NCBI GenBank assembly: GCA_016937975.1 | Contig: JAFGVN010000142.1 | Span: 1-64,000, forward strand | Length of the DNA stretch: 64,000 nucleotides | Source: Clostridia bacterium | GTDB taxonomy: Bacteria > Bacillota > Clostridia > Peptostreptococcales > Acidaminobacteraceae | Direction of reading: 5' to 3' | Shown: positions 1 to 41,398 of the stretch, one piece after another | Position numbering within the stretch: the stretch's first letter is position 1 | Layout of the letters: each line of letters begins with the position of its first letter | The notes under the pieces: model-generated | Database searches by the model: none | What the model was told of the DNA's origin: nothing | The model's input: the letters and a program-made list of their open reading frames with translations, nothing else | Made by a program: the position numbers and the translations under genes

Positions 1-221
1 AAAAAGATTTTATTTGATTAAACTCTATATTCATAAGTATGTCTCCTTTTGGTCTATACTTATATAATTCGAGATAAATTTTAAAAATCCTTTTTGTAAT
101 TTTTTACCATTTTAATTATTCATATGGTAATATTTGTTTGGCGGAATATGAGTTATTGTATTAATTTTGATATTAATATGGAAGTTGTGATTGTTCTGAA
201 AAATGGTATAAGGAGATAATG

Positions 222-722
222 ATGCTAAAAGTCAATGAAATGAATGCAGAAGAAAAAAGGATTGAAATGCGGTTGAAGAATAAAGTAGGAATATTGCAAG
301 AAGAAGGAACTTGCCCTACGTGTAGGAATTTTGAGTTTGATGATGTTTACCCAAATGATGGCAGAGCTTTCTATGAGGATGATAAAATAATATGTTTATT
401 TGAGCAATATCCTAGAGCTGTTGGACATACCATAATCCTAACAAAAGAGCATTATGAAGATATATCTGAAATGCCAATTGAACTTGGAACACATATATTA
501 TCAGTAACTCAAAAAATCATAAACTTATTGAAAGAAAAATTAGGTGCTGAGAAAGTTTATATGTGCACCATGTGTGATGGGAAACGAAATCATTTACATT
601 TTCAACTCCTACCAAGATTCAAAGGTGAAACAATAGGTAGCAAGAATTTCGTAAGAGAAAGAGGTATTTTGAAAGACTATGAGGAAACTGTACAATTGTT
701 TGAAGGTTGTATGAAGGCTTAG
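222..722 (+). CDS. HIT-like protein with HxHxQ active-site motif
   Basis: The product is about 166 residues. It has the HIT-superfamily pattern: an HTIILTKEHY strand-helix near residue 70 and an NHLHFQLLPR motif near residue 122. The third histidine of the classical HxHxH motif is Gln, as in the GalT/Apa branch, so a nucleotidyl transferase or dinucleoside-polyphosphate phosphorylase/hydrolase role is plausible. CPTC at residues 31-34 and CTMC further on could bind zinc. Two adjacent ATGs exist (219 and 222); AGGAG at 211-215 is better spaced for 222. The gene stands alone upstream of the toxin remnant. Substrate is unknown. Confidence 0.7.
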   Translation: MLKVNEMNAEEKRIEMRLKNKVGILQEEGTCPTCRNFEFDDVYPNDGRAFYEDDKIICLFEQYPRAVGHTIILTKEHYEDISEMPIELGTHILSVTQKIINLLKEKLGAEKVYMCTMCDGKRNHLHFQLLPRFKGETIGSKNFVRERGILKDYEETVQLFEGCMKA

Positions 723-810
723 TAACTGTTATTATTGACGATAAATAATGTCTGAATCAATAATCAAAACTAAGCAATATATTTCACTCGCTTCATAGAG
801 TGATGGTATA

Positions 811-885
811 ATGTTGAAATTATATGAAGAAAATAGGCTATTAGAAATAGCATCCGATTTGCCTCTTTTATTGTATCAGTTATGA
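811..885 (+). other. Very short ORF (24 codons), possible gene remnant
   Basis: A 24-codon frame (MLKLYEENRLLEIASD...) lies between the HIT gene and the toxin fragment. It has no clear ribosome-binding site and I recognise no domain. It could be the tail of an eroded immunity gene from an earlier cassette, but nothing in the sequence proves that it is translated. Confidence 0.15.
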
Positions 886-896
886 TGAAAAAATAA

Positions 897-1319
897 ACTG
901 ATGAGGGGACGAGTAATCTTATAGCTCAGGTTGATGAGTTTGTTAAACTAGGTCAGCTAAGTGTAAAAAAAAATGCTTCTGGTGAAGTTACTGGTTGGGT
1001 ATCAACTAATGGCTTAGTTTACGGAATGGGTTCTGCACAAGGAAATAGAGTATTACATGTTCTCGAACATTTAACCCCAAATCCAAGTAAACCATTACAC
1101 ACCGTGTTTAATACTACGAAGGATAAGGTTCTAGGCGTAGTTGATGAAGCGTGGGCTCTAAGAAGTAAGGCAACATCCTCTGTATTACAGCAAAATGGTA
1201 ACCGTTTGCTTGAAATACCTATGGGTAAAGTAATTGGCACTAATGGTGAAGATGTTATTACAATAATAATTAAAGATTTAACTTCTGAAATAATAACAGC
1301 TTTCCCAAAAGCTAAATAG
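897..1319 (+). pseudogene. Orphan C-terminal toxin domain of a polymorphic toxin (start-less)
   Basis: The frame is open from just after TAA 894-896 to 1319, giving 140 codons with no plausible start at its head; the first ATG (1026) lies inside the conserved part. The block with HVLEHLTPNP, HTVFN, VVDEAWAL, PMGKVIGTNGE and a terminal ITAFPK matches, from memory, the tip domains of large secreted polymorphic toxins; I infer an RNase-like fold but cannot confirm it. The frame begins with DEGTSNL, encoded by a 15-bp sequence repeated downstream at 1627-1641. A small zinc-ribbon gene follows 10 bp after the stop. The arrangement is that of a displaced toxin tip plus immunity gene. It is probably silent unless recombined onto a full-length toxin. 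Confidence 0.65.
902..916 (+). repeat. 15-bp junction repeat, copy 1 (TGAGGGGACGAGTAA)
   Basis: Identical to 1627-1641. In the toxin frame it encodes the EGTS of DEGTSNL, at the exact head of the start-less toxin domain. This suggests a shared junction through which toxin tips are exchanged. Confidence 0.7.
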
Positions 1320-1329
1320 GAGGTGTGAA

Positions 1330-1545
1330 ATGAAGGTTTGTCCTTTTTGCTCTGGACAAGGTGCAATTCAGAAAGCAGTGATTAAAAAAGATGATACTAT
1401 CATATTCATTTGTGATGAATGTGATACTGTTTGGCTAACTGAGAATTTTGAACCAGATAGATGCGTTCGTTTCGAAGACGAGATGGAGAAACGTGGTTTA
1501 AAACCATTGTGGTCTGAATTAAAAGATATTGAAGCACTAGAATAA
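1330..1545 (+). CDS. Small zinc-ribbon protein, probable immunity protein
   Basis: This 71-residue protein has two CxxC knuckles (CPFC at residues 4-7, CDEC near 29-32) spaced as in a zinc ribbon, followed by an acidic helical tail (DEMEKRG, ELKDIEALE). A strong AGGAGGTG ribosome-binding site at 1319-1326 overlaps the toxin stop region, so the two genes are tightly linked. Small acidic proteins directly downstream of polymorphic toxin tips are normally the cognate immunity proteins, and I infer that role from position alone. An alternative is a small zinc-binding regulatory protein. Confidence 0.6.
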   Translation: MKVCPFCSGQGAIQKAVIKKDDTIIFICDECDTVWLTENFEPDRCVRFEDEMEKRGLKPLWSELKDIEALE

Positions 1546-1560
1546 GATGATAAGTATAGG

Positions 1561-1592
1561 AGGAGTGGTGGATAAATTCATCACTCCTTTCT
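1561..1592 (+). terminator. Terminator after toxin/immunity cassette
   Basis: AGGAGTGGTGGA (1561-1572) pairs with TTCATCACTCCT (1578-1589) through 12 bp including two G-U pairs, with a 5-nt loop and a short T run. Confidence 0.6.
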
Positions 1593-1626
1593 GCATGTGA
1601 ATCAAAACTCACTACAGTATAACATC

Positions 1627-1641
1627 TGAGGGGACGAGTAA
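1627..1641 (+). repeat. 15-bp junction repeat, copy 2
   Basis: Exact copy of 902-916. It lies in a short frame that opens after TGA 1598-1600 and reads ...SEGTSKLDVTG... before stopping near 1688. Both copies therefore read EGTS-(N/K)-L in frame and diverge afterwards, as expected for the stub of a second, deleted toxin tip. Confidence 0.6.
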
Positions 1642-1981
1642 ACTTGATGTTACTGGGTATGATGTACTTATACTAAAGGTATTATAACCAGATTGATACA
1701 TGAAAATAATATAAACACAAATAATGGAGGCTAGTAGAAAATTTCACTAGTTCTTTATTTTGTCTAATTTTTATGAACTCATACCATCATGCATATTTAG
1801 GACTCAGACAGAATTGTTTTTATGTAGAGAAAAAATAATCTTAATGTTCTATTTGTAAAAGCCATAGTTATAAAGATTTTTATAATTCTTTTATATTTTC
1901 TTTATATTTTTTTTTGTTTTGAAATAGATAATAGAATGAGAGGATGGATTTTTTTTTAATATTACTGAAGATAAAGAGAGG

Positions 1982-2833
1982 ATGAATCACTTGATTAAAA
2001 CAAAAAAAGCAATAGGGATTTTCATAGGATCAATTTTACTAATTAATGTTGTTTTAAGTGGATTGATAATTTTTAATGGTAGGGGCTTAGAGAACAATAT
2101 ACCCTATGCGCTTGGATTAATGTATTCACCTGCTTTAATTGGTATTTGCGTACAGATATTCTTTTATAAGAATATAAAGGGTTTCGGGTGGAAATTAGGT
2201 CAAATAAATCATTTACTAACATCTTATTTTGTACCGATATTTTATATTACTATATCGTACATGATATTTGGATTGCTGGGTTTAATTGAATTTGATGTTA
2301 ATTCTATAGCATCTTTAACTGCTCTTGATTTTGTCCAAATATTATTGATTAACCCAATATTACTTACCTTATTAATTGTAGGCGAAGAGTTAGGGTGGCG
2401 AGGATTTTTGCTCCCTAAATTATGTGAAGTTACAAGTTTTAAAAAAGCTTCCCTTGTAGTGGGGGTCATTTGGACACTTGTACATTATCCAATTTTAATT
2501 TTCTCAGATTATAGTCATGTTTCAACACCGTTATTATTTCAAGTCCTTAACTTCACATGCTTAGCCCTTAGTGTTAATGTCATCATTAATTACTTAAGGA
2601 TGGAATCAGGAAGTCTATTAACTGCAATACTATTTCATGCAGTACATAACTCGGTATTACAAGATTTCAATCAATTGATTATCCCTGACAGTGTCAGTGA
2701 ATATTTTTATTCTGAAACTGGGATTGCATTAGCAATGGTATGCATGTTAATGGTTATAATTCTTATTAAGTTGAAAAAAACCAGCTTCAACAACTCTTAC
2801 AGCAAAAGTCAATTGAAACAAAGGTTTGATTAG
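1982..2833 (+). CDS. CPBP-family intramembrane metalloprotease (CAAX/Abi)
   Basis: A protein of about 283 residues with roughly eight hydrophobic segments. Near residue 135 it has the CPBP signature EELGWRGFLLPKL (Glu-Glu and Arg motif 1), then WTLVHYPIL (motif 2 His) and FHAVHNSV (motif 3 His). These are the metal-site residues of Rce1/Abi proteases. Prokaryotic members are linked to prenyl-protein processing, bacteriocin self-immunity or unknown roles. ATG 1982 directly abuts GAGAGG, so TTG at 1991 (MIKTKKAIG) may be the real start. The gene is monocistronic, and its position after a toxin/immunity remnant could be accidental. Confidence 0.85.
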   Translation: MNHLIKTKKAIGIFIGSILLINVVLSGLIIFNGRGLENNIPYALGLMYSPALIGICVQIFFYKNIKGFGWKLGQINHLLTSYFVPIFYITISYMIFGLLGLIEFDVNSIASLTALDFVQILLINPILLTLLIVGEELGWRGFLLPKLCEVTSFKKASLVVGVIWTLVHYPILIFSDYSHVSTPLLFQVLNFTCLALSVNVIINYLRMESGSLLTAILFHAVHNSVLQDFNQLIIPDSVSEYFYSETGIALAMVCMLMVIILIKLKKTSFNNSYSKSQLKQRFD

Positions 2834-39031: not shown

Positions 39032-40066
39032 ATGAGAATTATAAGAGTAGCATTATTGGGATTTGGCAATGCAGGCAAAGCCTTTGGAGAGCTGTTGATT
39101 AAAAATGAACAACGCATGAAAGAAGAGTTGGATGTTAAAATCCTAGTTACTGGAGTGGTTACCGGCACTCGAGGAGCAATTATCGATGAAGAAGGTATAA
39201 ATCTTAGAAAAGTCATTGATGATTTAACTGAAACGGGTCGTTTTTCAAAGGATACTAAGGGTCTTTGTAATATGACCACGAAAGAAGTAATTCAAGAGGC
39301 AAATTACGATGTCGCCATAGAAATCACACCTTTGGATGTCTTTACAGGTCAACCTGCTTTAGAGCATATCATCATGGCTATGAAAAGAAAGAAACATGTC
39401 ATTACAGCCAATAAAGGACCTTTAGCTCATGAGGGTAAATATTTAAAAGCTTTGTCAAAATCTCAAAACATACAATTTTTTCATGAAACCACAGTGATGG
39501 ATGGTACACCTATTTTCAATTTAGTGGAAGAAACCTTGCCATTTTGCAAGATCCAGGAAATCCATGGTATTCTGAATACCACGACAAATTTTGTATTGGA
39601 AGAAATGGCAAAAGGGAAAACTTTTGATGAAGCCATGACAGAAGGTCGAAAAAGAGGCTTTGTTGAAGCGGATCCATCCCTTGACATTGATGGTTGGGAT
39701 GCTGCCGCCAAATTGATGGCATTGATGAATGTCCTCATGGAAACCAATTTAAAACCACAAGACATCCACCGTACAGGGATTGGAAATGTAACAGCGGAAG
39801 ATATTGCTGCTGCTTCAAATGAAGGCAAGGTTATTAAACTCATCTGCAAAGGTCGATTCGAAGGGGGTAAACCCGTGGGAATTGTAGAACCTGTAAGTAT
39901 ACCATTAAAAGATGCATATGCTTCAATTTCAGGAACTTCTTCAGTGGTATCTCTAGTGACAGATTTAATGGGAACAGTTACTATAACAGAGCATGACCCT
40001 GAAATTGAACAAACGGGTTATGGTATTTTCAGTGATCTGATTAGACTCATCAAAAAAACACAATAA
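39032..40066 (+). CDS. hom: Homoserine dehydrogenase (no ACT domain)
   Basis: 344 residues, shorter than classical Hom (about 430) because the regulatory ACT domain is missing. The Rossmann motif is LLGFGNAGKAFGELL; ITANKGPLAHEGK contains the catalytic-region Lys; ETTVMDGTP and the substrate motif EADPSLDIDGWDAAAKL follow. It converts aspartate semialdehyde to homoserine for Thr and Met synthesis, or the reverse in catabolic forms. Lack of ACT suggests no threonine feedback. GAGGGGGCACATC precedes the ATG. It is monocistronic with a strong terminator. Confidence 0.9.
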   Translation: MRIIRVALLGFGNAGKAFGELLIKNEQRMKEELDVKILVTGVVTGTRGAIIDEEGINLRKVIDDLTETGRFSKDTKGLCNMTTKEVIQEANYDVAIEITPLDVFTGQPALEHIIMAMKRKKHVITANKGPLAHEGKYLKALSKSQNIQFFHETTVMDGTPIFNLVEETLPFCKIQEIHGILNTTTNFVLEEMAKGKTFDEAMTEGRKRGFVEADPSLDIDGWDAAAKLMALMNVLMETNLKPQDIHRTGIGNVTAEDIAAASNEGKVIKLICKGRFEGGKPVGIVEPVSIPLKDAYASISGTSSVVSLVTDLMGTVTITEHDPEIEQTGYGIFSDLIRLIKKTQ

Positions 40067-41002: not shown

Positions 41003-41031
41003 TTGACCATAGTTATAAACTTTGGTATAGG
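41003..41031 (+). promoter_or_regulatory. Promoter of the T-box leader
   Basis: TTGACC (41003-41008) and TATAGG (41026-41031) are separated by 17 bp and lie just before the leader's stem I. Confidence 0.6.
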
Positions 41032-41035
41032 TATT

Positions 41036-41250
41036 GAAAGAGACCAGTAAACAATAAAAATTCTTTAAGAGAGCCGATGGGTGGTGGGAATCGGTAGAAA
41101 TATTGTTGAATATCCCTCTTGAACTGATTGCTGAAACTATAGAATTTAGGAGTAAGTTAATCCGATTAATCTTCGTTATCAGATTCGCATTTGATGGAAT
41201 GTTGTACGATGGTTGATGATAGAGTTTCGTATAATCGAAACTCTTTTTAT
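41036..41250 (+). ncRNA. T-box leader with Ile (AUC) specifier; antiterminator core degenerate
   Basis: The leader shows a T-box stem I. AAGAGACCAGTA has the AGTA of the specifier loop. AACAATA (41050-41056) pairs with TATTGTT (41101-41107). The apical part AGAGAGCCGAT ... ATCGGTA has the usual AG-bulge/distal loop look. After TATTGTT the 3' strand reads GAA-T-ATC-CCTCTT; aligned to the glyQS T-box (GAA-A-GGC-A), the specifier is AUC at 41112-41114, that is isoleucine. GAGTTTCG (41222-41229) pairs with CGAAACTC (41236-41243), followed by five Ts, as the terminator. A canonical AGGGTGG-N-ACCGCG antiterminator element is not intact; the closest stretch is around 41189-41203. The next genes are a 40-codon Ile-rich ORF and a methyltransferase, not ileS or ilv. 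Confidence 0.7.
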
Positions 41251-41275
41251 ATTGGGTGGAAAGTGAGGTGATTGT

Positions 41276-41398
41276 GTGAGTAAAAGTGACATTAGTGACA
41301 TTAGTGATATTAGAGGCATTGAAATTATCAATAAACTATTATTAAAAAGGAGATACTTTTATGAGTTACAATCCTGCAATTCCAAGAGAACGGTATAA
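41276..41398 (+). CDS. Ile-rich small ORF after the T-box, possible leader peptide
   Basis: GTG 41276, 5 nt after AGGTG, opens a 40-codon frame with Ile at positions 6, 9, 12, 15, 17 and 18 (SDISDISDIRGIEII). Its first part is a 9-bp tandem repeat (GACATTAGT, GACATTAGT, GATATTAGA). The frame runs over the methyltransferase start (41361) and stops at 41396-41398, so it could couple translation to that gene. Six isoleucines behind an Ile-specific T-box would make a natural attenuating leader, but a chance product of repeat expansion is also possible. Confidence 0.4.
   Translation: MSKSDISDISDIRGIEIINKLLLKRRYFYELQSCNSKRTV

Follow-up and report, generated by a model that had tools for sequence, protein, structure and literature searches.

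A probable two-step isoleucyl-tRNA sensor ahead of an accessory methyltransferase gene in a Clostridia bacterium

A 64,000-nucleotide stretch of a Clostridia bacterium genome (contig JAFGVN010000142.1, positions 1 to 64,000, forward strand; the window in what follows) carries a methyltransferase gene that is probably governed by a two-step sensor of isoleucyl-tRNA and that behaves as an accessory gene across the Bacillota. Features read from the sequence are a T-box with an AUC specifier, a terminator, a conserved and isoleucine-biased leader open reading frame with near-invariant isoleucine codons, and a compensated pairing between the leader start and the methyltransferase start (Table 1). 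In the proposed first step, the T-box would bind uncharged tRNA-Ile and transcription would pass the terminator. In the second, acting on the finished mRNA, the leader start region would pair with the methyltransferase start region and mask the methyltransferase AUG. When Ile-tRNA is short, a ribosome held at leader isoleucine codon 6 or 9 would sit on the leader-side arm, breaking the pairing and opening the methyltransferase start; when it is sufficient, ribosomes would run on across the methyltransferase start and the mask would reform. We infer that both steps respond to uncharged tRNA-Ile, that a ribosome stalled at codon 6 or 9 frees the methyltransferase start, and that the non-canonical antiterminator of the window is still functional.

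Table 1. Positions of the regulatory features and of the methyltransferase gene in the window.
Feature	Position	Strand	Basis
T-box leader, stems I to III	41025..41192	+	RF00230 placement, 87.6 bits; also retrieved by whole-genome search
Specifier codon AUC (isoleucine)	41112..41114	+	RF00230 alignment and calibration on same-genome T-boxes with confirmed genes
Candidate non-canonical antiterminator, GUUGUACGA (41201-41209) with UCGUAUAAU (41227-41235)	41201..41235	+	predicted pairing and shuffles
Intrinsic terminator, AGAGTTTCG-TATAAT-CGAAACTCT then T run	41221..41244	+	terminator search and folding
Shine-Dalgarno-like GAGGTGAT of leader ORF	41265..41272	+	sequence; similar G-rich site at same place in other leaders
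5' arm of start-to-start pairing (41270-41276 and 41280-41287)	41270..41287	+	over leader start
Leader ORF, 40 codons, GTG start, MSKSDISDISDIRGIEIINKLLLKRRYFYELQSCNSKRTV	41276..41398	+	ORF list and conservation; overlaps methyltransferase start out of frame
3' arm of start-to-start pairing (41355-41362 and 41367-41373)	41355..41373	+	over methyltransferase AUG
Class I SAM-dependent methyltransferase, 278 aa	41361..42197	+	ORF and profile/fold matches; Shine-Dalgarno AAGGAG at 41348-41353

The isoleucine-specific T-box described in the original prediction is recovered by a covariance-model scan with RF00230 under permissive filters (E 8.7e-20). Its score lies slightly below Rfam's gathering score of 93, which is why a scan of the whole window returns zero Rfam matches above gathering. 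A whole-genome RF00230 search gives 27 T-box matches in the same genome, 22 of them above the cut-off. The covariance alignment shows that stem I, the GAA/AGUA motif and stem III of the window T-box fit the family, so the earlier description of a degenerate core applies to the antiterminator and not to these parts. Folding of the whole T-box region is unremarkable and uninformative (z -0.61), and the region used as a DNA query against 41 genomes (its own and 40 relatives) finds, besides itself, only short stretches at six sites, each 30 to 55 bases long. We note that a homoserine dehydrogenase gene (39032-40066), whose product feeds threonine and isoleucine synthesis, lies one gene 5' of the T-box, possibly by chance.

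The specifier was read by comparison with other T-boxes of the genome that precede NCBIfam-confirmed genes. In the window it lies in the context GAA-U-AUC-CCUCUUGAAC, and the corresponding sequences are ATC-CCTCTTGAGC for ilvA, GGC-GCTTTGGAGC for glyS and ATG-GCCCTGGAGC for metG. Six calibrators (glyS GGC, metG ATG, argS AGA, aspS GAC, ilvA ATC and an ATC upstream of ilvC) have the specifier immediately 5' of a 10-base stretch ending in GAR plus one base, and the window ATC occupies the identical register; tyrS is a seventh, with its TAT one base farther away. The specifiers of valS, leuA and leuS (GTA, CTC and TTG) were read by eye, and the landmark pattern did not pick their specifier region. 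This calibrated register makes the alignment-based reading of the window specifier as AUC solid, as had been claimed from the letters alone.

The antiterminator had been called damaged, and indeed the canonical UGGNACC-type bulge core is missing from the window T-box, whereas a UGGN-A-(A/C)-C core is present in 25 of the 27 T-boxes of the genome. The terminator is distinct, with one found by the terminator search against a mean of 0.1 in shuffles, and a folding energy of -10.7 kcal/mol (z -5.4). Between the two lies a candidate for a non-canonical antiterminator, a helix of nine pairs (two of them wobbles) that takes part of the terminator 5' arm and loop; its 3' strand is common to both structures, and the helix is predicted to exclude the terminator. 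Directly 3' of its 5' strand is a UGGU (41210-41213), and because tRNA-Ile ends in ACCA this could hold the tRNA end. A pattern search for tRNA-Ile in the same genome found none. When the sequence before the terminator is dinucleotide-shuffled, a nine-pair helix that abuts TGGT and extends into the terminator arises in 5 of 5000 shuffles, or in 30 of 5000 with any TGG, a statistic chosen after the helix was seen; an earlier test, requiring five perfect pairs, was reached by chance in 263 of 5000 mononucleotide shuffles. We read the 41201-41235 element as possibly a working antiterminator of non-canonical form. Past the terminator, a second GGGTGGAA stretch (41254-41261) makes an unlikely displaced T-box core, as its fourth bulge base would not match a discriminator A.

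Elsewhere in the genome (contig C26) we note tandem T-boxes upstream of ilvC, of which the first (L010, 1501-1741) reads ATC (Ile) and the second (L027, 1501-1714) GTA (Val) by eye. The second is the sole other T-box among the 27 without the canonical core; the single core match listed for it sits at the start of the stretch and belongs to the preceding T-box.

An alternative is that the window T-box is a decaying remnant and that the leader ORF alone still regulates the methyltransferase. Decay would fit the RF00230 score below the cut-off, the loss of a bulge that nearly all T-boxes of the genome keep, and the finding that L078 and L080, two of the closest relatives of this methyltransferase, have no T-box before the gene even at a permissive threshold. 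Against it stand the intact stems I to III and AUC, the strong terminator, and the helix beside UGGU that competes with that terminator. We regard decay as a serious though somewhat doubtful explanation.

The second proposed sensor is the small ORF that follows the terminator. The frame is as originally described, with six isoleucines within 13 residues, at codons 6, 9, 12, 15, 17 and 18. It was compared across 33 loci (the window, L078-L108 and L109), and as L079 is cut off upstream, 32 of these are readable. An intact leader ORF is present at 27 of the 32, the window included, and the objection foreseen in the original prediction, that the ORF might not be conserved, therefore falls away. 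The intact leaders follow the pattern M-x-x-x-(D/G)-(I/V)-x-(D/G)-I after a strong Shine-Dalgarno-like site, with isoleucine at codon 6 in 26 of 27 and at codon 9 in all 27; beside these, codon 5 is D or G, codon 7 mostly S, and codon 8 D or G. Of the other readable loci, L097 has a frame-broken leader, and L096, L098, L100 and L107 are without a leader of this kind. Intact leaders begin at -67, -73, -76 or -85 from the methyltransferase AUG, and these differences in length never alter the frame with respect to that gene.

Across the codons of the 27 leaders that lie ahead of the methyltransferase ribosome site, isoleucine makes up 122 of 452 in the leader frame (27%), compared with 60 of 452 (13%) and 12 of 425 (3%) in the other two frames, and with a mean of 10% and a maximum of 14.6% in 1000 mononucleotide shuffles. 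In-frame stops number zero, against 38 and 101 in the other frames. The association with the methyltransferase is also strict within a genus. In a set of 100 genomes from the genus that includes Paenibacillus tritici, a search allowing up to three mismatches finds the leader pattern in 15, once in each and in every case directly before the methyltransferase, which is itself present in 16; the sixteenth (G870) has no such leader within 160 bases upstream of the gene. From these sequence comparisons we infer that the leader ORF is translated.

A helix between the leader start region and the methyltransferase start region emerged both from single-sequence folds and from RNAalifold on 20 leaders. 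In the window all 15 of 15 pairs are standard, and in two of these both partners have changed (GC to AU and CG to UA). In an alignment of 20 of the 27 intact leaders (A4), with 15 pairs scored, 91.7% of cells are paired, compared with 36 to 54% when the partners are slid. Cells changed on both sides number 11, against 2.6 plus or minus 1.4 in shuffles, and the covariation score is 0.224 against 0.145, neither value being reached in 500 shuffles. Two of the five measures separate less well: five pairs have both-side changes, compared with 2.2 (15 of 500 shuffles reach it), and there are 12 further pair types, compared with 11.1 (173 of 500). One slid control, at -3, has four both-side pairs, 8 cells and a covariation of 0.192, but with 53.7% of cells paired. 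Counted without gaps in 43 sequences, which include the broken L097 and give 23 distinct arm pairs, 88.7% of cells pair, against 37 to 52% when slid, and duplex energies average -14.8 kcal/mol compared with -8.0 for shuffled 5' arms, the lowest of 500 being -9.9.

The energetic picture is more modest, with a consensus fold energy of -1.29 kcal/mol (RNAalifold, 20 leaders) and unremarkable single-sequence folds of five leader regions (z -1.4 to +0.25). The majority of the both-side changes come from one clade, that of the T-box loci, and the pairing is weak there, with 10 or 11 of 15 pairs gapped, 8 or 9 ungapped, and helix energies of -5.9 to -7.4 kcal/mol (three of the four measured). With the usual ribosome footprint, a ribosome held at codon 6 or 9 would overlie the leader-side inner arm wholly or partly, and one farther on would release it. 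The two near-invariant isoleucine codons would be explained by a ribosome held there covering the arm.

The combination of T-box, leader and methyltransferase is not confined to the window. At L101, L103, L105 and L108 a T-box lies directly 5' of the leader and methyltransferase with a score of 94 to 98 bits, above the Rfam cut-off, so that five of the 32 readable loci have all three (window included); L105 has an additional T-box downstream of the methyltransferase. The specifier loop UUGAAUAUCCCUCU is common to the window and these four, in which the UGGNACC bulge has an altered form, UGGUAUAAC. Rfam scans find no T-box before the methyltransferase at the remaining 28 of the 32 fetched loci (L078-L109); 22 of these were scanned with permissive filters and L097 through its duplicate L065, while L094, L100, L104, L106 and L107 were scanned at gathering only, where a T-box as weak as that of the window could escape. 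By similarity to the window T-box the four rank 8 to 11 of 60, behind the metG T-box of the same genome among others, and so lend no support to shared descent with it. Placed on the methyltransferase tree, the T-box label needs three changes. At L103, in Lutispora, we note an ORF (1-2070, minus strand) that resembles an NRPS condensation domain by eye and faces away from the T-box and methyltransferase.

The gene downstream of the leader is neither ileS nor an ilv gene, as had been noticed, and encodes a class I SAM methyltransferase. Its predicted structure is confident (mean pLDDT 89). The whole-length fold matches that stand out are to CmoM and TM1389 (Z 26.8, 26.4 and 25.2; the next is 21.4), and the best among the chains compared is CmoM, a tRNA cmo5U34 methyltransferase, with Z 26.8 over 249 residues at 15% identity; likeness of fold does not in itself reveal what an enzyme does. 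The protein falls well short of the NCBIfam models for CmoM (PRK11036, 28.4 bits against a cut-off of 366) and for Erm (23.5 bits against 212). Residues R26 and Y247 are given as carboxylate-binding in CmoM (PMC10516636). By eye alignment neither is kept in the window protein, the computed profile alignment spanning residues 40-152 only. A PADLOC match to Mad2 is limited to the general methyltransferase domain.

No close relative of the methyltransferase is present in 60 near genomes, where the best by E-value have 27 to 29% identity, and 397 other genomes of the phylum give no relative at E <= 1e-40. Plasmids have no close relative (all 17 records are under 60% identity, and the one covering over 80% is at 22.8%), nor do phages (one record, 26%). 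Among contigs of named genomes a single-protein query gave none, while an alignment-based query gave 31 orthologous loci at 58 to 77% identity; four relatives in another family of the same class are judged to be the same stretches as four of these 31. Carriers include Paenibacillus, Fontibacillus, Clostridium, Mobilitalea, Herbinix, Anaerosolibacter, Lutispora and uncultured Clostridia. A scan of viral contigs yielded one further locus (L109, 2176-6833), obtained twice, a phage contig on which the leader and methyltransferase have an HTH repressor-like gene on one side and terminase and portal genes on the other. On the methyltransferase tree the window protein groups with those of Mobilitalea, Herbinix and a Lachnospiraceae MAG (98/89). 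Taxa are mixed, with two Oscillospiraceae MAGs among Paenibacillus and Paenibacillus turicensis among Clostridium, a pattern that a mobile gene would be expected to produce. Occurrence is also patchy among relatives, the gene being present in 4 of 22 genomes in a second set besides the Paenibacillus one above.

Several other methyltransferase arrangements are noted. At L091 (3001-5848), in Clostridium manihotivorum, the frame is cut short to 231 residues, with group II intron sequences a little way 3' of it. In the same genome as the window (contig C95; L071, 743-2316) a distant paralogue (29%) directly follows trpA, and in two genomes of the same genus (L142, 1255-3523, and L141, 1079-3198, both minus strand) a T-box is followed by ilvA or asnA and then by a small methyltransferase. 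It may be more widespread for amino-acid operons to end in a methyltransferase gene.

Further signs of isoleucine control come from gene neighbourhoods and from one distant orthologue. The gene lies beside ilv genes at three of the 31 named loci only: in the order ilvD, ilvA, a RidA-like gene, leader and methyltransferase at L094; ilvD, ilvA, leader and methyltransferase at L095; and ilvB, methyltransferase, ilvD and leuA at L100, where the methyltransferase AUG follows the ilvB stop by two bases. At the remaining loci, with flanks of about 3 kb or less, no neighbouring ORF of at least 90 residues is similar to the ilv genes of these three. Just two neighbour families occur at more than two loci: ilvD, at those same three, and a small protein encoded at three loci in Paenibacillus, which we take to be MazG-like and which has no NCBIfam match. 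A different device is seen at L107, where the orthologue (58% identity, with an in-frame stop in this MAG) is preceded by an unrelated 26-codon leader with six isoleucines and then a terminator. In single-sequence folding, a ribosome held at isoleucine codons 12-13 leads to a structure that uses up the terminator 5' arm, and the terminator forms without a ribosome or with one at the stop codon. It also forms with the ribosome at isoleucine codons 20-21, which tells against the sensor reading.

The most likely role of the methyltransferase is in the response to isoleucine shortage, either in branched-chain amino-acid metabolism or in protection from an agent that blocks isoleucine charging. The ilv clusters favour a branched-chain metabolic step under shortage, whereas patchiness and phage carriage favour protection against charging blockers. 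The specific proposal that the enzyme protects against natural isoleucyl-tRNA synthetase inhibitors, which make uncharged tRNA-Ile build up no matter how much isoleucine is available, is compatible with two-step regulation, and both sensors would read the uncharged tRNA; an accessory gene in 16 of 100 and 4 of 22 genomes, in mixed-taxon clades and on a phage, is what a defensive gene would look like. We nonetheless think it rather unlikely, as the gene sits inside ilv clusters at three loci and one literature search turned up no title about methylating such a drug.

Another reading, after the example of erm control, makes the leader an arrest peptide that senses a drug or ligand, the conserved D-I-S-D-I serving as arrest motif and isoleucine being incidental. 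The conservation of codons 5, 7 and 8 next to the isoleucines, the erm-like layout of leader and methyltransferase, and the patchy, taxon-mixing and phage-borne distribution of the unit all suit it, but the isoleucine T-boxes ahead of the unit, the unrelated isoleucine-rich leader of L107 and the ilv clusters indicate isoleucine itself, and we judge an arrest peptide improbable. That the small ORF encodes a methyltransferase substrate or a microprotein with its own function, and not a sensor, is least credible of all in spite of its conserved N-terminal sequence and its strict linkage in 15 of 15 Paenibacillus genomes having it, given that its C-terminal end lies over the methyltransferase ribosome site and start and is for the most part dictated by them, that its length varies by 6 to 18 nt among groups with little common beyond (D/G)-I-x-(D/G)-I, and that its start pairs with the methyltransferase start.

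Within the two-step reading, a broader scenario can be put forward tentatively: that leader and methyltransferase form a mobile cassette, moved among distant Bacillota and carried by phage, and that the gene is an isoleucyl-tRNA stress gene under up to three unrelated isoleucine-sensing RNA devices (a T-box, a start-to-start translational attenuator and a classic transcription attenuator). The enzyme might then catalyse an unrecognised methylation tied to isoleucine, for example C-methylation of 2-oxovalerate to the isoleucine keto acid, or the disarming of isoleucyl-tRNA synthetase inhibitors. Here RNA control reveals function, since an orphan methyltransferase under several unrelated isoleucine devices is very probably tied to isoleucine or its tRNA, and this makes the orphan family directly testable. 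The leader, in which one ORF start masks the next and near-invariant isoleucine codons fall where a held ribosome would cover the mask, would serve as a portable, compact sensor of starvation.

Parts of this arrangement have counterparts among known systems. Like members of the RF00230 family, the window has stems I to III, an AUC specifier and a terminator; unlike them, it lacks the canonical UGGNACC bulge. In erm-type attenuators a ribosome stalled on a short leader ORF unmasks a methyltransferase start, and the same layout is proposed here; the differences are that the window sensor would respond to Ile-tRNA, that the mask is formed by the leader's own start region, and that the methyltransferase is not an Erm. 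Wels et al. list one 'Ile related hypothetical' gene (LBA1071) under an isoleucine T-box (PMC2494555), and the literature searched, as listings and a few passages, holds no report of this leader or of an isoleucine T-box before such a methyltransferase.

The closest parallel is anti-TRAP of B. subtilis, which is described as induced by uncharged tRNA-Trp through a T-box together with tRNA-dependent ribosome stalling (PMC4027176, PMC11255114). As in the anti-TRAP (rtpA, at) operon, one uncharged tRNA would be sensed twice in the window, by a T-box at transcription and by stalling at translation, the latter predicted here; anti-TRAP senses tryptophan and its product is a regulatory protein, while the window has isoleucine and a methyltransferase. 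The primary papers on this tandem sensing are reportedly those of Chen and Yanofsky from 2003 and 2004. The anti-TRAP leader has a run of Trp codons and ends before the rtpA start, unlike the window leader, which overlaps the methyltransferase start and pairs its own start with it. Two isoleucine sensors in series had been thought new. The pairing of T-box and leader recurs at four other loci with T-boxes above the cut-off, but the claim of newness in kind gives way before the anti-TRAP precedent; as tandem tRNA-Trp sensing is known there, the window is an isoleucine variant and not the first of its kind. What is new relative to anti-TRAP is isoleucine, the methyltransferase target, the overlapping leader that masks by start-to-start pairing, and the wide horizontal spread, and the tandem layout suggests that anti-TRAP, with its tryptophan sensing, does not stand alone.
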